From Clostridia bacterium (lineage in GTDB: Bacteria > Bacillota > Clostridia > Oscillospirales > QAMX01): a stretch of DNA of 45,607 bases. Within the stretch, counting starts at the first letter, position 1; the number at the start of each line of letters is the position of its first letter. The stretch spans positions 1 through 45,607 of the forward strand of contig JAFRWU010000007.1 in the NCBI GenBank assembly GCA_017441705.1, given 5' to 3'. Both the position numbers and the translations under genes were made by a program. Positions 9,289-17,562 of the stretch are shown in pieces. The notes beneath the pieces are model-generated. The model was not told the origin of the DNA. It searched no databases and saw nothing but the letters and a program-made list of their open reading frames with translations.

Positions 9289-10728
9289 ATGGCATTATCG
9301 GAACTGATCAAATACGAAGGCGACAACTCCACCTTTATCTGGAAATACCCGCACGAAGATTTCAACAGCATGACCGAGCTTGTCGTTCACGAATCGCAGG
9401 AGGCGATCTTCGTCGCCAACGGCCGCGCGGCTGACACCTTCGGCCCGGGGCGGTATAAGCTGGACGCGAAAAACATCCCGATCCTGACCGGTCTTCTCAA
9501 CATCGTCACCGGCGTCAGCATCTTCCATTGCGAGGTCTATTTCATCAACAAGACCGTGCAGATGGCGATGAAATGGGGCACCGATTCCAAGGTGCGCTTC
9601 ATCGAACCCACGCTGGGGATCCCCTTGGAGCTGGGCGCGTCGGGCGATCTTAATCTCGCGGTGTCCGACGGGAGAAAGCTGCTCTTCCGTCTGGTGGGGA
9701 CCACCGGCGGCGTCGCCTGGGGAGACGGCCCGGGCTTCACCAAATCGCTGCAGGCCTCCTTCCGCCCCCTGATCTCCACCGAGGTGAAATCCAGCCTCCC
9801 CTCGGCGATCAAGGCGAGAAATATCGACGTGGTGGAGATCGACGAGCATCTTTCGGCGCTTTCCGAAGAGCTGAAAAAGCGGATCGCGCCGGGCTTTGAG
9901 GAATACGGCCTGACCGTTCCGCAGTTTTATCTGACCACGGTGGTGCTTCCCGAGACCGATCCGAATTTCAAAAGGCTGAAGGATCTGCACACCCTGACGC
10001 TGCAGAAGCGCGCGGCCGCGGCGGAAGCCGAGGTGCGCACCGCGGAGGCCGAAAGCCGCGCTGCCTACAAAAAGGCGGAGGCGGCCGCGGAGGCGGAGAT
10101 CAGGGCCGCGGAACGCGGCGCTATCCTGGAGGCCGAGACCACCCAGACCGAGATCGCCCGCCGGGCCGCCGAAAGAAAGCTGATCGAGGCGGAGGCGGAA
10201 GCCCGCGCCGCCCGGATGGCCGGCCTGACCGAGGCCGAGATCATGCAGGCCAAGGGCTACAACCAGAAGGACGTCCTGCAGGCCGAGGTGCAGAAGGCCT
10301 ATGCCGAGGGGATCGGCAACATGGGTCCCGCGGTCTCTTCCGGGGGAGGCTCTTCGGTGGTGGGCGACATGCTGGGTCTCGGGGTGGGCATGGCGGCCAT
10401 GGGCGCCGTGGCGCCGCAGGTCGGCGAGATGATGCGCGGCTTTGCTCCGTCTCAGGGAGCCGCCGAAAAACCCGCCTCACCCGAAAAGATCCCCTGCCCG
10501 CAGTGCGGGAATCTTCTGCCGCTGAACGCGAAATTCTGTCTGGAATGCGGCGCGAAGATCGAAGCGCTCGGAGAAAATGAAATGATCTGCCCGGCCTGCG
10601 GGAAGAAGACTCCGAAAGGAAAGTTCTGCATGGAATGCGGCGCGCCCATGAAACGGGTCTGTCCCCAATGCGGCGCAGACGTGCCGGAAGGCGGAAAATT
10701 CTGCCTGGAATGCGGAACGAAGCTCTGA
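9289..10728 (+). CDS. SPFH/band-7 domain protein with C-terminal zinc ribbons
   Basis: A 479-residue protein of the YdjI-like SPFH group. Residues about 30-240 form the SPFH (band-7) fold. They are followed by an Ala/Glu/Arg-rich coiled coil (about 245-330, with repeats such as AEAEVRTAEAESRAA), then a Gly/Met-rich linker. Three CxxC...CxxC zinc ribbons lie at about 403-479 (CPQCGN, CPACGK, CPQCGA, each closed by C-x-E-C-G). Such proteins form membrane-associated or oligomeric scaffolds. No clear transmembrane segment is seen at the N terminus. It has a consensus promoter and is followed after 49 bases by the first TIR gene, which also begins with a zinc ribbon. The role in this operon is inferred to be scaffolding. 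Confidence 0.88.
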   Translation: MALSELIKYEGDNSTFIWKYPHEDFNSMTELVVHESQEAIFVANGRAADTFGPGRYKLDAKNIPILTGLLNIVTGVSIFHCEVYFINKTVQMAMKWGTDSKVRFIEPTLGIPLELGASGDLNLAVSDGRKLLFRLVGTTGGVAWGDGPGFTKSLQASFRPLISTEVKSSLPSAIKARNIDVVEIDEHLSALSEELKKRIAPGFEEYGLTVPQFYLTTVVLPETDPNFKRLKDLHTLTLQKRAAAAEAEVRTAEAESRAAYKKAEAAAEAEIRAAERGAILEAETTQTEIARRAAERKLIEAEAEARAARMAGLTEAEIMQAKGYNQKDVLQAEVQKAYAEGIGNMGPAVSSGGGSSVVGDMLGLGVGMAAMGAVAPQVGEMMRGFAPSQGAAEKPASPEKIPCPQCGNLLPLNAKFCLECGAKIEALGENEMICPACGKKTPKGKFCMECGAPMKRVCPQCGADVPEGGKFCLECGTKL

Positions 10729-10777: not shown

Positions 10778-13700
10778 ATGACTGTCTTCAAATGCAAGAT
10801 GTGCGGCGGTACGATCGAATTCGAGCAGGGAGCGACGGTCGGCGTATGCGATTCCTGCGGGACGAAACAGACCCTTCCCCGTCTGGACGACGACCGGAGG
10901 GCGAATCTCTACGACCGCGCAAACCACTTCCGCCGCGCCAACGAATTCGACAAGGCGGCAGGAATCTATGAGCAGATCCTGAACGAAGACAAGACCGACG
11001 CGGAGGCGTACTGGTCGCTTGTTCTCTGCCGCTACGGCATCGAATACGTAGAGGACCCGGCGACCCGTAAGCGCGTTCCGACGGTCAACCGCGCGCAGTA
11101 CACGTCGGTTTTCGACGACGACAATTACAAATCCGCACTGCAGTACGCAGACGGCTATCAGCGTTCCCTTTACGAAGAAGAAGCGAATACGATCAACGAG
11201 ATCCAGAAGGGCATCCTTGCCATTTCGCAGAACGAGGAGCCCTTCGACGTCTTCATCTGCTACAAGGAAACCGATCAGAACGGAAGAAGAACGCCGGACA
11301 GCGTGCTGGCGAACGACCTGTACCATCAGTTGACCAACGAGGGCTTCAAGGTATTCTTCTCCAGAATCACACTGGAGGACAAGCTCGGCACGGCGTACGA
11401 GCCGTATATTTTCGCGGCGCTCAATTCTTCCAGGGTGATGGTCGTGCTCGGTACGAAGGCGGAATACTTCAACGCGGTCTGGGTCAAGAACGAATGGAGC
11501 CGTTATCTGGCGCTTGTCAAACAGAGCGGCGGGAAGAAGATCCTGATCCCGGCGTACCGGGACATGGATCCCTACGATCTGCCGGAGGAGTTTTCGCACC
11601 TGCAGGCGCAGGACATGTCGAAGCTCGGGTTTATGCAGGACCTGATGCGCGGAATCAGGAAGATTGCTCAGGCGGACGAACCGAAGCCGGCCGCAAAGGA
11701 GACCGTTGTTGTGAACCAGACTGCGGCGGGGAATACCGCGCCGCTCCTGAAGCGCGCCTTCATGTATCTGGAGGACGGGAACTGGGGTGAGGCGGACGCG
11801 TACTGCGAGCGCGTTCTGGATCAGGACCCCGAAAATGCGGAGGCGTATCTCGGGAAGCTGATGGCCGAACTGAAGCTCCGGAAGGAAGCAGATTTTGAAG
11901 GACTGATCTCCGCTTTTGACAGGAGCACGAATTATCAGAAGGCGATCCGCTTCGGTGATAAGGCAATTGTTGAAAAGCTAAAGACATGGAACAGTAACGC
12001 GCCGAAGGAAGGTATCTATCAATCGGCAAAAAAGGAATTGAAGAACGCACGTAATGCCGTATCCTATAAAGCGGTATCGCAATCGTTTGCAAGGATTCAA
12101 GGATACAAGGATGCGGATGCACTTCGGGAAAAGGCGCTTTCACTTGCTGAAGACAGCATAAAGGATGATATCTATAAAAAAGCGATTAAGGCAATGATCG
12201 ACGGAGCGGACGCAAAGGATCGCGCATCGCTTTCTTCAAATTATGATTCCAGAATAAAGCAATATGAAACAGCCAAAAGCCTATTCAAACAAGTCCCTGG
12301 TTGGCGTGACGCAGATGAGAAAGTGGCGGTATGTGAAAAAGCGATAGATGACCTGCATACTGAGCAGAAACGAACCGAGGAAGAAGAAAAAGAGGCGAGG
12401 CTTGCCAAGGAGAAGAGGAAGAAAAAGGCAAGGAAGATCGCGGCGATCGTGATCCCGGCCGTGGCGGTCCTGACGGCGATCGCGATCCTTCTGCCGACGG
12501 TCATTATTCCCGCCATTAAGTATAATTCTGCGGTGCAGTTACTGAAAGAGGGAAAGTACGAAGAAGCCATTACTGCCTTCCAGCTTTTGAACGGGTACAA
12601 AGACAGCGCTGCGAGAATTGATGAAAGCAAAAATGAAAGCGCATATCATCATGCCCTTGGGCTTATGAACGAAGGCCAATACGAAGAAGCAAAGAAAGAG
12701 TTTATTAGCCTTCATGGCTACAGAGACAGCAAAGTGAAGATAGAAGAGTGTGATAACGCTCTATGTGACAACAGTTACCAAAAAGCTTTATCGGAAGCGG
12801 AAGCTGGTAGAAAAAAAGAAGCGATTAAGCTTTTACAAGGTATAGAGCAATATAAAGATGCATCCGAATTAATTATTCAGTATAAATATGACATGGCTCT
12901 TGAATTGTTCGAAAACGGAAAGTATGAATTGGCAATAGATGCCTTTTCCGATCTGTCCGGCTATAGCGATAGCAAGGATAAGATCAAAGAGTGCCAACAG
13001 CTTTTAGACGACAAACAATTGGAAGACGAGTATAATAGAGCAGTATTGCATTTACAGAATCAAGAATATGTTGAGGCAATAAAAGCGTTCAAAGCCTTGA
13101 ACGGCTACAAGGACAGTGAAGAAAGAATAGAGCGAATACGTACAGATATGTTCAAAAAAGCTTCGGTTGGGTCTTCATTGTTTCTGGGAAGCTATGAACA
13201 AGATAATATCAGGAATAACGGAAAGGAGGAAATTGAATGGCAGATCCTCGATATTAAAGGAGATAAAGCTTTGCTGATCAGTAAATATGCTTTGGACTTT
13301 CGACCGTACAACGAAGAACGAAAAGACGTGACATGGGAGACCTGCACCTTAAGAAAATGGTTAAATGACGGGTTTATTTCCGATGCGTTCTCTGATTCGG
13401 AAAAGAAGCTTCTTCTCAATACCACGATAAGTGCGGATAAGAATTCCAAGTATAAGGACGTTAGCCCGGGGAAAACCACCACAGACAAGGTTTTCTTATT
13501 GAGTATACGGGAGGCAGAAGAATACTTCCCGAATTCCACAAACAGAATGTGTCCTATTACTGCATACGCTTTATCAAGGCAACAAAAAATTCTCAACATT
13601 ACTGCGGACAATATTGGTATTATAAATGAGTATTGGTGGTTGAGAACGCCAGGCTTATACTCAAGTTATGCATCATTTGTTTCAAGTAACGGTGAAATCC

Positions 13701-13819
13701 TTTATAACGGCGTTGAGGTAAACGGTGGAGGAACTGTAAATTTTGGATCATACTATATGTCGGATGTCAATCCGGTGGTCCGTCCCGCCATGTGGATCGA
13801 TCTTGGGGCGGCGGGATGA
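10778..13819 (+). CDS. Transmembrane TIR-domain protein with zinc ribbon, repeats and DUF6273-like domain (paralogue 1)
   Basis: A 1013-residue protein. An N-terminal zinc ribbon (Cys6, Cys9, Cys24, Cys27) is followed by TPR-like helices (about 40-150). A TIR domain (about 155-300) starts at FDVFICYKE and contains VFFSRITLEDK and AVWVKNEW, where Glu239 sits in the position of the NADase glutamate of enzymatic TIRs. More helices follow (about 325-540). A single membrane helix (about 555-577) comes after a very basic KEKRKKKARK, so the N-terminal part should be cytoplasmic. After it come four or five repeats of the kind LLKEGKYEEAITAF..L.GYKDS (about 580-790) and a DUF6273-like C-terminal domain with WWLRTPG and NPVVRPAMWIDLG. 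Base composition falls sharply in the 3' part. Enzyme activity and ligand are unknown. Confidence 0.88.
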   Translation: MTVFKCKMCGGTIEFEQGATVGVCDSCGTKQTLPRLDDDRRANLYDRANHFRRANEFDKAAGIYEQILNEDKTDAEAYWSLVLCRYGIEYVEDPATRKRVPTVNRAQYTSVFDDDNYKSALQYADGYQRSLYEEEANTINEIQKGILAISQNEEPFDVFICYKETDQNGRRTPDSVLANDLYHQLTNEGFKVFFSRITLEDKLGTAYEPYIFAALNSSRVMVVLGTKAEYFNAVWVKNEWSRYLALVKQSGGKKILIPAYRDMDPYDLPEEFSHLQAQDMSKLGFMQDLMRGIRKIAQADEPKPAAKETVVVNQTAAGNTAPLLKRAFMYLEDGNWGEADAYCERVLDQDPENAEAYLGKLMAELKLRKEADFEGLISAFDRSTNYQKAIRFGDKAIVEKLKTWNSNAPKEGIYQSAKKELKNARNAVSYKAVSQSFARIQGYKDADALREKALSLAEDSIKDDIYKKAIKAMIDGADAKDRASLSSNYDSRIKQYETAKSLFKQVPGWRDADEKVAVCEKAIDDLHTEQKRTEEEEKEARLAKEKRKKKARKIAAIVIPAVAVLTAIAILLPTVIIPAIKYNSAVQLLKEGKYEEAITAFQLLNGYKDSAARIDESKNESAYHHALGLMNEGQYEEAKKEFISLHGYRDSKVKIEECDNALCDNSYQKALSEAEAGRKKEAIKLLQGIEQYKDASELIIQYKYDMALELFENGKYELAIDAFSDLSGYSDSKDKIKECQQLLDDKQLEDEYNRAVLHLQNQEYVEAIKAFKALNGYKDSEERIERIRTDMFKKASVGSSLFLGSYEQDNIRNNGKEEIEWQILDIKGDKALLISKYALDFRPYNEERKDVTWETCTLRKWLNDGFISDAFSDSEKKLLLNTTISADKNSKYKDVSPGKTTTDKVFLLSIREAEEYFPNSTNRMCPITAYALSRQQKILNITADNIGIINEYWWLRTPGLYSSYASFVSSNGEILYNGVEVNGGGTVNFGSYYMSDVNPVVRPAMWIDLGAAG

Positions 13820-13890: not shown

Positions 13891-16629
13891 ATGGCGATCC
13901 TGAAATGCAAAATGTGCGGGGGAGATATCGAACTCTCCGCTGACAAGACCTTCGGGACATGCGATTCCTGTGGGAGCACGATGACCTTCCCGCGGATCGA
14001 CGACGACCAAAAAGCGGCCATGTTCAACCGCGGCAACCACTTCCGGCGCTCGGGTGAGTTCGACAAAGCCCTCACGGTTTACGAACGCATTCTGGAGGAG
14101 GACGAAAGCGACGCGGAGGCTCACTGGTGCGCCGCACTGTGCCGTTTCGGGATCGAGTATGTGGAGGATCCGGCGACGCTGGAATACATACCAACCTGTC
14201 ACCGTGCCAGCTTCGACAGCTTCCTGGAGGACGTGGATTACAAGGCGGCGCAGGAACATTCCGAGGGGGTCACGAGAAGGCAGTATCAGAAAGACGCAGC
14301 AAAGATCGCGGAGGTTCAGAAGGGGATCCTTGCCACTTCGCAGAACGAGGAGCCCTTCGACGTCTTCATCTGCTACAAGGAATCTGAAAACGACGGCACG
14401 CGGACGCGGGACAGCCTTCTTGCCCAGGATATCTATTATCAGCTGAGCGAGAAGGGCTGGCGGGTATTCTTCTCACGAATAACGCTGGAAGACAAGGCGG
14501 GGACCGAGTATGAACCGTACATCTTCGCGGCCCTGAATTCGGCGAAGGTCATGGTGGTCGTCACAACGTCGGCCGAGCATGTGAACGCAGTCTGGGTGAA
14601 GAACGAATGGAGCAGATACCTTGCCTTGATGAGGAAGGACCGGAAGAAGCTGCTTCTGCCGTGTTACCGGGACATGGATCCCTACGATCTGCCGGAAGCG
14701 CTGTCGGTGCTCCAGTCCTACGATATGTCAAAGATCGGGTTCATCCAGGATCTGATCCGTGGGATCAACAAGGTTTTGGAAGCCGAGACACCGAAGGAGA
14801 CCGTGCGCGAGACAGTGGTCGTAAACCAAACTGCTGCTGTGGCAGGGAATACTGCACCGTTGCTGAAACGCGCCTACATGTTTCTTGAAGACGGTGATTG
14901 GGAAAGGGCTGACGAATTCTGCGAGCAAGTCCTGAATCAGGACCCGGAAAACGCAGAGGCCTATCTCGGGAAGTTGATGGCTGAACTGAAACTCAGGAGA
15001 GAAGCAGACTTTGAAAATCTAACAGAGTCCTTCGACAAGAACCCGAATTACGAAAAGGCTGTCCGTTTCGGGGATGAAGCACTTAGGGAAAAGCTTCGGG
15101 CCTGGAATGAAAAAGCGCCGAAGGAAGGAACCTATCAGTCCGCGGTAAATATGCTGAAAAATGCATCAAACGAAGGAACATTCATGGCAGCCGCACAGAT
15201 CTTTGCCAAAGTTCCGGGATACAAGGATACAGACACGCTTCGTGAAAAAGCGCTAGTCAAAGCCGAGGAATGCCGGAAGGCCAGTATTTACAGGGAAGCG
15301 GACAACAAATACCGAGAGGCCAACCGACGTGCATCGGATCAGGAACGTCTGGCCGCGCTTGTTAAAGAGGATGAAGACGCGATCACAAAGCTTTATACAG
15401 CCGCAAGGCTCCTGTATCTGCAAGCCCCAGGCTGGCTCGACGCCGATCAGAAGGCGGAGGAGTGCGAAGAGGCTATTGTCGACTACCGCACAAAGAAAGA
15501 TGCGGCTGAGAAGGAAGCGGCGCGCAAAGCGGAAGAGGAAAGAGCATACGCGAAGAAAAGGAAGAAGAAAACAAGGCTCATCGTAGCGATCGTAACGACG
15601 AGTGTCGTGACGTGTATTGCATTTGTTGTCCTGCTCATAAAAGTAATCATTCCAACCAGCAAATACAACGCAGCGGTCGATCTTTACAACGAAGGGAAAT
15701 ATGAAGAAGCCATTTTGGCGTTCCAGAATCTTAACGGATATAAGGACAGCCAAAACAAGATCAAAGAATGCGATAATGCCATCAAGGAACCGCAGTACAA
15801 CAAGGCGGTACAGCTAATGAACGAGGGTCAATACAGCGATGCCATAAAGATCTTTAGTGAACTGGTTGGATATAAAGACTGTTACCGTCAGATTGAAAAC
15901 TGCGAAACTGCGATAAAGGAAAACAAGTATACTGCAGCAATAGAATTGTATGAAAAAGGCGATTATTCTCATGCAGAGGATGCCTTTATTGAACTAAAGG
16001 ATTATAAAGACAGTAGTGAAAAGGCGAGGAATTGTAGAATTAAACTTCAATTTGGTTCTTTAATTGGTGTTTCTGTAGGATCAATTATAAAGCTTGGGAC
16101 TTACGAGCAGGATAATAATACTGCTAATGGTAAAGAGAGCATTGAATGGTTGGTCCTTAAGAAAGAAGAAAACAAATATCTGGCCGTAAGTAAGTACGTA
16201 TTGGATTGCCTACCCTTTGATGACAGTAACGGTACAAATTCGCTAAGCAGTTCTGCTCTTTGGCAATATAGCACGCTTCGCAGATGGTTGATTAACGACT
16301 TTTTCAATAACGCATTCAATAATGACGATAAAGTGTTGCTTAATAGTTCCACTGATAGAGTGACGCTTCTAAGCCTTGCTGAAGTAGAGGAATTGTTTAA
16401 CTCTGACAATGAAAGAAAATGCAAGGGAACGGAGTACAGCTTCGCAAAAGGTGTAAGCAGACACGATGACAATACATGTACTTGGTGGTTGCGAACCCCT
16501 AAAACAGATGTAAAAAATTATGTTGAAGTTGTTGTCGAAGACGGTAGATGCAATATTATCGCCTATATCGGTGAAATGTTCATCGGTGTCCGTCCTGCGA
16601 TATGGATTGATCTTGGAACAATTGATTGA
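13891..16629 (+). CDS. Transmembrane TIR-domain protein with zinc ribbon, repeats and DUF6273-like domain (paralogue 2)
   Basis: A 912-residue paralogue with the same order of parts: zinc ribbon (Cys6, Cys9, Cys24, Cys27), TPR-like helices, TIR (about 155-300, FDVFICYKES, FFSRITLEDK, AVWVKNEW with Glu239), basic stretch and one membrane helix (about 565-587), fewer GYKDS-type repeats than paralogue 1, then a DUF6273-like domain ending WWLRTP and GVRPAIWIDLG. Start ATG at 13891 has AAAGGAG upstream. Stretches of the TIR region are identical at DNA level to paralogue 1, including 45 bases around FDVFICYKE (11224-11268 and 14338-14382), while the C-terminal halves differ strongly. The stop abuts the SIR2 gene start. 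Confidence 0.88.
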   Translation: MAILKCKMCGGDIELSADKTFGTCDSCGSTMTFPRIDDDQKAAMFNRGNHFRRSGEFDKALTVYERILEEDESDAEAHWCAALCRFGIEYVEDPATLEYIPTCHRASFDSFLEDVDYKAAQEHSEGVTRRQYQKDAAKIAEVQKGILATSQNEEPFDVFICYKESENDGTRTRDSLLAQDIYYQLSEKGWRVFFSRITLEDKAGTEYEPYIFAALNSAKVMVVVTTSAEHVNAVWVKNEWSRYLALMRKDRKKLLLPCYRDMDPYDLPEALSVLQSYDMSKIGFIQDLIRGINKVLEAETPKETVRETVVVNQTAAVAGNTAPLLKRAYMFLEDGDWERADEFCEQVLNQDPENAEAYLGKLMAELKLRREADFENLTESFDKNPNYEKAVRFGDEALREKLRAWNEKAPKEGTYQSAVNMLKNASNEGTFMAAAQIFAKVPGYKDTDTLREKALVKAEECRKASIYREADNKYREANRRASDQERLAALVKEDEDAITKLYTAARLLYLQAPGWLDADQKAEECEEAIVDYRTKKDAAEKEAARKAEEERAYAKKRKKKTRLIVAIVTTSVVTCIAFVVLLIKVIIPTSKYNAAVDLYNEGKYEEAILAFQNLNGYKDSQNKIKECDNAIKEPQYNKAVQLMNEGQYSDAIKIFSELVGYKDCYRQIENCETAIKENKYTAAIELYEKGDYSHAEDAFIELKDYKDSSEKARNCRIKLQFGSLIGVSVGSIIKLGTYEQDNNTANGKESIEWLVLKKEENKYLAVSKYVLDCLPFDDSNGTNSLSSSALWQYSTLRRWLINDFFNNAFNNDDKVLLNSSTDRVTLLSLAEVEELFNSDNERKCKGTEYSFAKGVSRHDDNTCTWWLRTPKTDVKNYVEVVVEDGRCNIIAYIGEMFIGVRPAIWIDLGTID

Positions 16630-17562
16630 ATGAGAAATAGTATGAATAACAATAAAGATGTGTATCGACCGGGAAAAACGTTGCTTCTCGGAAACGGGAT
16701 CAATCGCGCATTCAGCAAAAACTCCTGGGATGATATGTTGAAGAGCGTCGCGACAAGGAACGATTTCGAACCAGGAAAAATGAATGCGCCGATGCCGCTG
16801 CGTGCCGTGATCCTGACCGACGACAAGATCGATCAGGCGGCTAAAAACCTGAAAGAGATGTTCTGCGGAGAAATCACGGATCTGGAACATGGCGACCTGC
16901 TGAGACGGCTTCTTTCAGCAGGATTCGACGACGTCCTGACCACCAATTACAGTTACGAGCTTGAAACGGCAGCGAAAGGAGCAGAACGCCTTTCGGAGGG
17001 ACAAATCGCGGGCATGATGCGGCATACGGAAGGAAACCGGGCGGAAGCGCGTTATCTTCTTCACACCTTCAACGAGGTCGCCTGCGAAGGAAGAAATAAT
17101 CGGATCTGGCACGTTCACGGAGAAAGCCGGAAGCCGGACAGTATGCTCCTGGGACATTACTGGTACGGAAATCTGACGGCGCGGATCGCCGCGGAGGTAA
17201 AGAGCAACGGGAACCGGTACCGGGAGCTTGAGAAGAAAAACGCGCCTCTTCCGCGAAACAGCTGGATCGACGGGTTCCTTCTGGACGATCTCTTTATCCT
17301 CGGATTCGGGTTCGATCTTTCGGAGATCGATCTGTGGTGGCTTCTCAACCGCCGCAAGCGGGAAAAGGCACGGAAAGGAAAAATCGTCTTTTACGATCCC
17401 CGGATCGATCTTGAGGAGAACCGGGAGCGCAAAGCCCTTCTGGAATTGATGGACGTCAAGACCGTTTCCTTTGCCGGTTACGGGATCGAAAAAGAGGATT
17501 ATCAGGAGTTTTACAGAAGGGCGGTCCGCGATATCTGCGACGTCGTAAAAGAGCGCGGGTAA
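16630..17562 (+). CDS. SIR2-like domain protein
   Basis: A 310-residue protein of the SIR2-like (PF13289-type) group. The NAD-binding loop is LLLGNGINRAF (about 18-28), DDVLTTNYSYELE carries the TTNY motif (Asn106), IWHVHGE the catalytic-type His (His163), and LFILGFGFDLSEID ends the Rossmann-like core. Proteins with this fold are NAD-consuming effectors in several bacterial defence systems. The ATG follows the previous stop directly (TGAATG), with no good ribosome site, so translation is probably coupled; an alternative ATG lies 12 bases later. No membrane segment is seen. I infer an effector or partner of the TIR proteins. Confidence 0.85.
   Translation: MRNSMNNNKDVYRPGKTLLLGNGINRAFSKNSWDDMLKSVATRNDFEPGKMNAPMPLRAVILTDDKIDQAAKNLKEMFCGEITDLEHGDLLRRLLSAGFDDVLTTNYSYELETAAKGAERLSEGQIAGMMRHTEGNRAEARYLLHTFNEVACEGRNNRIWHVHGESRKPDSMLLGHYWYGNLTARIAAEVKSNGNRYRELEKKNAPLPRNSWIDGFLLDDLFILGFGFDLSEIDLWWLLNRRKREKARKGKIVFYDPRIDLEENRERKALLELMDVKTVSFAGYGIEKEDYQEFYRRAVRDICDVVKERG

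Follow-up and report, generated by a model that had tools for sequence, protein, structure and literature searches.

What might a bacterial protein sense when a TIR domain in one half of it is joined, across a predicted membrane helix, to a DUF6273 domain at its end? The question is raised by two adjacent genes, A and B, in a 45,607-nucleotide stretch of DNA from a Clostridia bacterium (contig JAFRWU010000007.1; hereafter the window). We suggest, as the probable reading, that A and B are membrane receptors in which ligand-triggered clustering would lead to TIR output on an SPFH scaffold, and that they belong to an immune-type family whose members in the window have a fixed or decayed specificity. 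The part of this proposal that makes DUF6273 the sensor, which a first-pass annotation of the sequence had already put forward, is well supported: the domain matches the fold of a solved DUF6273 structure (9QA6), is predicted to lie outside the cytoplasm, has no invariant cysteine or histidine and, in relatives, is the target of a diversity-generating retroelement (DGR).

The two proteins, 55% identical paralogues, share one order of parts: a zinc ribbon (called in A from CxxC pairs and sub-threshold Pfam matches), TPR, TIR_2, TPR, a transmembrane (TM) helix, YKDS/TPR repeats and DUF6273. The corresponding features are as follows.

10778..13819, + strand: protein A, a TIR protein of 1013 amino acids (translation, Pfam, hydropathy)
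11249..11623, + strand: TIR_2 domain of A, residues 158-282, with WVKNE as its WxxxE motif (PF13676, E 3.2e-13)
12437..12493, + strand: predicted TM helix of A, residues 554-572, after the basic KRKKK (hydropathy 2.89)
12518..13156, + strand: YKDS/TPR-like helical repeats of A, predicted to be extracytoplasmic (Pfam TPR; helix pairs in the full-length model)
13145..13819, + strand: DUF6273, the predicted ectodomain of A (model 13145-13813; Pfam 13262-13801; PF19789, E 9e-28)
13634..13789, + strand: stretch of A that aligns with the relatives' DGR variable region (WWLRTP...VRPA) and has 13 residues inserted
13891..16629, + strand: protein B, a TIR protein of 912 amino acids, tandem paralogue of A with the same architecture
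14362..14733, + strand: TIR_2 domain of B, residues 158-281 (PF13676, E 1.3e-12)
15577..15633, + strand: predicted TM helix of B, residues 563-581 (hydropathy 2.75)
16054..16629, + strand: DUF6273, the predicted ectodomain of B (Pfam 16171-16611; PF19789, E 1.7e-13)
16483..16599, + strand: counterpart in B of the relatives' DGR variable region

The motifs from which the first-pass annotation had recognised the terminal domain are all present in the translations (GSYEQDN, TLRKWLN, WWLRTP and VRPAMWIDLG in A; GTYEQDN, TLRRWLI, WWLRTP and VRPAIWIDLG in B), and the profile search bears out its view that both proteins end in DUF6273, at 97.7 bits for A and 51.2 bits for B against a gathering cut-off of 23.5. 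The interval it gave for the domain takes in the copy of A, but that of B, at about 16054-16629, lies outside it. Its placing of the domain after repeats and a membrane helix linked to TIR agrees with the Pfam order and with the one clear hydrophobic helix in each protein, which separates the TIR/TPR half from the YKDS repeats, themselves scoring as TPR in Pfam. At the DNA level the repeats of A are degenerate, with a single two-copy family, 80% alike, within 12480-13200. DUF6273 is confined to the A and B genes in their own 2.8 Mb genome (B being detected as two pieces).

The evidence that the domain recognises something variable comes from relatives. A scan of species genomes gave at least 593 candidate stretches, at least 511 of them encoding relatives; the best 80 were kept, amounting to 78 loci (L numbers denote loci and G numbers genomes; G102 comes from a class sample and its locus is L108). 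These loci are titled Clostridia, groups within Clostridia, or Bacillota, and are sequence records, mostly metagenome-assembled genomes (MAGs). We scanned them for pairs of template repeat and variable region whose mismatches are confined to template adenines; the scan was ungapped, used a shorter window for loci after about L054, and would miss cassettes on separate contigs. It singled out L022, where 20/20 mismatches in 123 nt lie at template adenines (hypergeometric p 1e-14), the best background pairs having 10 mismatches with 2-3 off adenine. The L022 locus carries, in order, a TIR-TM-DUF6273 gene (334-2823), an Avd gene, the template repeat and the gene of a reverse transcriptase (RT) with YMDD; the template repeat follows the variable region at a distance of 707 nt. 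The RT matches RVT_1 at E 5e-20, and the Avd protein matches bAvd (E 9e-9, 36.2 bits, just under the cut-off of 40) and the NCBI DGR Avd model NF033474 (E 1.3e-13, below its 80-bit cut-off).

A search for RTs of the L022 type (72% identical) gave two further comparable pairs. At L038, 16/17 mismatches lie at template adenines (p 4e-9), with the template and the RT on another contig of its genome and Avd, by eye, split over both contigs. At G102 the count is 22/22 (p 2e-14), and the target is visible only from the YKDS repeat onward; G102 contig C35 had been considered as the N-terminal half of this target, on contig C105, and was rejected, since the two contigs hold different paralogues, which is also why the N terminus of the target is unseen. 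Over the three pairs, 58/59 mismatches fall at template adenines. Judged by these signatures, the DUF6273 tail is a DGR target in L022, L038 and G102, and we regard such targeting as the strongest available sign that DUF6273 binds ligands that vary. As a separate observation on G102, L157:10193-11673 and L108 are paralogous TIR-family tails in which the start of DUF6273 is near-identical and at which the contigs break; one of them stands beside the DGR.

Avd and RT are present in L081 and L108, and in L081 a single 37 kb contig bears the whole set of SPFH gene, TIR gene, Avd, template and RT; this locus yields no mismatch count, because its variable region is unreadable. Among the 78 loci there are thus three intact-looking cassettes, one of them split over two contigs, and two decayed ones, beside TIR-DUF6273 genes in L028 and L052. 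L028 has three TIR-DUF6273 genes, and there the start of Avd is fused to the end of the RT, which looks like the result of an internal deletion that took the template with it. RTs were sought in 43 genomes of the 78 loci (44 loci), chosen mainly for a DUF6273-like tail, and 12/43 held one at E <= 1e-10: two close and full-length, two close fragments and eight distant. The RTs of G221, G405, G139, G060, G037, G584 and G549 (34-56% identical) stand beside other or unseen targets and were left uncounted. The template reads WWLRSPGNNxNNAANVNNDG..., and this accounts for the appearance of the family's ends, WWLRSPG and then scattered variable residues. The degenerate template pattern occurs in 1/391 class genomes (G102) and at four distinct places among 170 loci, and a scan of IMG/VR for it returned 0 matches.

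An editing footprint is also visible in genes that lack the machinery. In 30 distinct variable regions of standard length (five of them in frames whose TIR part is not detected or is cut off), the 14 columns that correspond to template asparagines have a mean entropy of 3.24 bits; in the 20 columns where the template has no adenine, it is 0.53 (Mann-Whitney p 9e-7). Their codons have the form NNY, expected from edited AAY codons (N, any base; Y, a pyrimidine), in 379/420 cases. Counted gene by gene, in a table of 24 rows that includes two duplicates (window B twice, and L122, which equals L023), NNY occurs in 300/336 codons, as against 174 expected from the background of each gene. Twelve genes show 14/14. 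Seven loci with this full footprint have no intact retroelement (L005, L008, L014, L016, L018, L035 and L063), and that of L052 lies beside the decayed cassette; in the genomes of L005, L008, L014, L016 and L035, which are MAGs of unstated completeness, there is no RT at E <= 1e-10.

Because a DGR rewrites the recognition stretch of DUF6273 in several relatives, we take the family to be an immune-type system, and the data suggest a bacterial immune-style receptor able to change what it recognises. The broader proposition is that gut and rumen Clostridia hold a Toll-like receptor family whose recognition surface would be actively rewritten by DGRs in some lineages, the footprint-bearing and window copies being specificities fixed after the machine was lost; we regard it as evenly balanced between true and false.

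If DUF6273 is a recognition domain, its fold should be compatible with binding, and the first-pass annotation had called for structure comparison with lectins and with formylglycine enzymes. An AlphaFold2 model of the domain of A, built from an alignment of 29 domains, has a predicted local distance difference test score (pLDDT) of 91.3 and a predicted template modelling score (pTM) of 0.89. Its best match among solved structures is 9QA6, a DUF6273-bearing immunoglobulin A (IgA) peptidase, with Z 17.7 over 176 residues (Foldseek E 1.2e-7; profile match E 2.8e-5), followed by the Bacteroides fimbrial protein 4EPS (Z 6.6) and by C-type lectins such as snaclecs and natural killer (NK) receptors (Z 4.3 to 5.9). 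The C-type-lectin-like matches outside DUF6273 are weak (Z 4.3 to 6.6, values that the tool calls common), and they agree with the published likeness of phage DUF6273 to C-type lectins by DALI, where 4EPS is among the comparisons described (PMC10743442). EgtB-type sulfoxide synthases also appear among the structure matches (Z 4.1 to 4.8) and would favour a formylglycine/EgtB-type enzyme, yet they score no better than background rows, and the 25 invariant columns of the 29 DUF6273 sequences contain neither cysteine nor histidine. For this last reason we rejected the enzyme reading, which is almost certainly wrong.

A sensor of outside ligands must also face outward. We scored a helix where mean hydropathy was >=2.0, in a set of 38 TIR-DUF6273 frames from the window and relatives. 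Such a helix is present in 32/38 frames; in these, the mean net charge drops from +5.2 in the 15 residues before it to +1.0 after it, and 31/32 have their more basic flank on the N side. From one helix with a basic N-side flank we infer that TIR lies inside and DUF6273 outside, and A and B are accordingly predicted to be single-pass membrane proteins of that orientation. The first-pass placing of DUF6273 outside thus stands for A and B, with their single helix and the KRKKK flank, and does not extend to the six frames that have no clear helix. These six mean that part of the family may be cytoplasmic, and they speak for DUF6273 sensing inside the cell, either with the helix as an anchor of another topology or with the TM-less members as the functional ones: one of them, the second gene of L028, has a full 14/14 NNY footprint, the truncated paralogue on C35 of G102 shows no clear helix by eye, and a TIR-bearing DGR target of Thiohalocapsa is described as predicted cytoplasmic (PMC10907252). 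Against this stand the strong helix with a basic N-side flank that A and B both carry and its presence in most of the family, and we think intracellular sensing improbable.

The helix-less frames, the truncated G102 paralogue and the weakness of the lectin matches all count against the receptor proposal, and they are joined by what the window and its genome contain. In that genome, which is 98.4% complete, so that a missing contig is possible, there is no RVT_1 match, no close copy of the L022-type RT and no second copy, as a template, of the variable stretch of A or B. Allowing up to 3 mismatches, the window has no occurrence of the template pattern, and a full scan of the window for template and variable repeats returned one chance pair only. 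Neither gene has a clear footprint: A, whose variable loop is longer and different, has NNY in 25/42 codons against a background of 0.48, and B has it in 10/14 (p 0.075), so that B, with L030, L055 and L070, does not differ significantly from background. We therefore rejected A and B as DGR targets; for the window, the argument from DGRs is one of homology, and, as far as editing is concerned, its receptors appear to be fixed or to have decayed long ago. Also to be set against the proposal are a poor full-length model of A (pTM 0.36, with low pLDDT in the membrane segment), which gives nothing firm on signalling and was excluded from claims about contacts; the fact that the relatives are known as sequence records only, mostly MAGs; and the finding that PADLOC gives A and B no convincing match to a known defence family.

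What A and B might signal to is suggested by their neighbours, which form with them an SPFH-TIR-TIR-SIR2 cluster, all on the + strand, with intergenic gaps of 49, 71 and 0 nt.

9289..10728, + strand: SPFH / Band_7_1 protein with zinc ribbons (PF13421, E 3.2e-35), ending 49 nt before A
16630..17562, + strand: SIR2_2 protein (PF13289, E 2.5e-7), starting directly after the stop codon of B

In the receptor reading that we favour, binding of a ligand by the outer DUF6273, with its putative lectin fold, would cluster or rearrange the receptors through the stalk and the membrane; clustering would switch on the cytoplasmic TIR as an NAD-consuming (nicotinamide adenine dinucleotide) or signal-making enzyme, acting by itself or jointly with the neighbouring SIR2 protein, and the SPFH protein would serve as a scaffold that organises the receptors in the membrane. 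The couplings to SIR2 and SPFH we infer from gene order. The WxxxE glutamate is the motif of TIR NADases, and its conservation in 93/93 TIR frames suggests NAD chemistry by the TIR domain; the SIR2 neighbour likewise suggests an NAD-linked output. Across the relatives, the SPFH gene adjoins the TIR gene in 60/71 scorable loci, always on the same strand and at a median gap of 722 nt (7/78 loci had too little flank to be scored), and the SPFH protein is the most constant neighbour of TIR genes. More than one TIR frame occurs in 25/78 loci, and SIR2-like neighbours occur in L004, L005, L024, L030 and L050, with L052 added on a weak Pfam match (E 0.0036).

Possibly the ligands are glycans from the host or the diet, or else neighbouring cells, and the receptors steer ordinary physiology such as colonisation and adhesion, with TIR as a signalling and not a defence domain. 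The relatives come mostly from gut and rumen records, the PADLOC result would fit, and cellular DGR targets are reported to be mostly membrane-anchored, with adhesion or carbohydrate-binding domains (PMC8144416). We nonetheless consider this account rather unlikely, given the SIR2 and AbiH-like neighbours of the TIR proteins and a weak match of the L022 TIR protein to the phage-defence candidate model PDC-S66 (E 8e-6). TIR together with SIR2 and AbiH-like neighbours is typical of defence. A TIR protein beside a SIR2-type protein also recalls Thoeris (ThsB TIR and ThsA SIR2), but the SIR2 gene of the window has, by Pfam, SIR2_2 and a weak AbiH match only, without SLOG, and the ThsB match is weak (E 0.036 for A, 0.0012 for L022); membership in Thoeris was rejected on these grounds.

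That the ligand is a phage structure, as the first-pass annotation had suggested, finds no support in our results. Phages also raise another alternative, namely that the lectin domain was taken from DGR targets of phage tails or capsids and, instead of sensing, acts as a decoy or competes with phage receptor binding. DGR targets with DUF6273 have been published for phages, among them the tentaclins of nd4 and nd12 and proteins of the Faecalibacterium phages Lelie, CP11, Roos and Pioen (PMC10743442, PMC11792537), and a table in PMC13432834 has a DUF6273 gene following an RT gene. As described there, these targets carry the DUF6273 domain that the present family has, with a C-type lectin fold by modelling and with the variable region at its C terminus (PMC10743442, PMC11792537); they differ in that their DUF6273 is borne by virions, either by itself or attached to Ig-like or tail domains, whereas the present family joins it to TIR across a bacterial membrane helix. 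In favour of a phage-derived decoy, DUF6273 phage proteins are among the viral structure matches, and, among phage RTs, the one nearest to the L022 RT (45.6% identical over 93%, tied with MT837771.1, a fecal phage record) belongs to nd12, whose DGR targets carry DUF6273 (PMC10743442); in IMG/VR, the relatives of the L022 RT, at 6 loci, are only 29-32% identical. A mere decoy, however, would not need to be joined to TIR by a membrane helix and encoded within a conserved gene cluster, and the single viral contig in which the receptor was found, L122 of IMG/VR, is 100% identical to L023 over 10,463 bases and was rejected as an independent copy. We judge the decoy highly improbable.

Earlier proposals, mainly on multicellular bacteria, describe DGR-edited sensors in which a C-type lectin (CLec) domain is linked to immune domains (PMC10907252, PMC7159879, PMC7517822), and the family described here would follow the same principle as these putative antigen sensors with a different receptor, partner and host group. 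Thiohalocapsa PB-PSB1 likewise joins DGR-hypermutated CLec domains to immune effectors, its DGR 2 target having CHAT and TIR, but the systems there are of the MoxR/vWA or STAND NTPase kind, and the one with TIR is predicted to be cytoplasmic, as opposed to TIR-TM-DUF6273 with SPFH in Clostridia (PMC10907252). Some cyanobacterial DGR variable proteins also have an N-terminal TIR-like domain, there a less common feature, and the available text on them mentions no DUF6273 or SPFH cluster (PMC7517822). The global DGR survey describes cellular targets as mostly membrane-anchored, and "TIR" is absent from its main text (PMC8144416). DUF6273, there with a solved structure, is also present in the ThomasA IgA peptidase of Thomasclavelia ramosa (9QA6), where, in contrast, it is the N-terminal domain of a secreted protease (PMC12402451). 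In the literature searched, whose scope left out preprints and most subscription papers, we found no published TIR-TM-DUF6273 receptor, edited or not, and DGR-edited immune sensors are not tied there to membrane TIR receptors of Clostridia. Animal Toll-like receptors have an outside recognition domain, one membrane helix and a cytoplasmic TIR; A and B have the reverse order along the chain and an unrelated ectodomain, and the comparison is one of analogy.

If the broader proposition on gut and rumen Clostridia is true, single-celled bacteria would have a self-editing repertoire of surface receptors. A single protein, in an abundant, gut-relevant family, would combine the stretch that varies with the membrane step and the TIR output, and the idea that a retroelement-diversified lectin provides immune recognition would become directly testable in that family. 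The family would also suggest a function for DUF6273 and tie it to phage host-recognition proteins that have a related reverse transcriptase.

The outer end of these proteins is in any case exchangeable. A close relative of the L022 TIR protein occurs in 24/381 sampled class genomes, and across relatives the N-terminal half is conserved and the outer part varies: among ten proteins tested, the outer end was DUF6273, RCC1 repeats or a stretch without a Pfam name. RCC1 repeats replace DUF6273 in the TIR-TM relatives L042:9995-12658 (E 3.7e-54) and L026:10001-12916 (E 1.2e-37), from which we conclude that the family swaps ectodomains. Finally, L110:2510-7684 and L111:10717-14892 encode large proteins whose N terminus is of secretion type and which have an IGEYLQMGTY-ILWRC stretch that is, by eye, reminiscent of DUF6273; both adjoin RTs of DGR type, with about 50% identity to the L022 RT.

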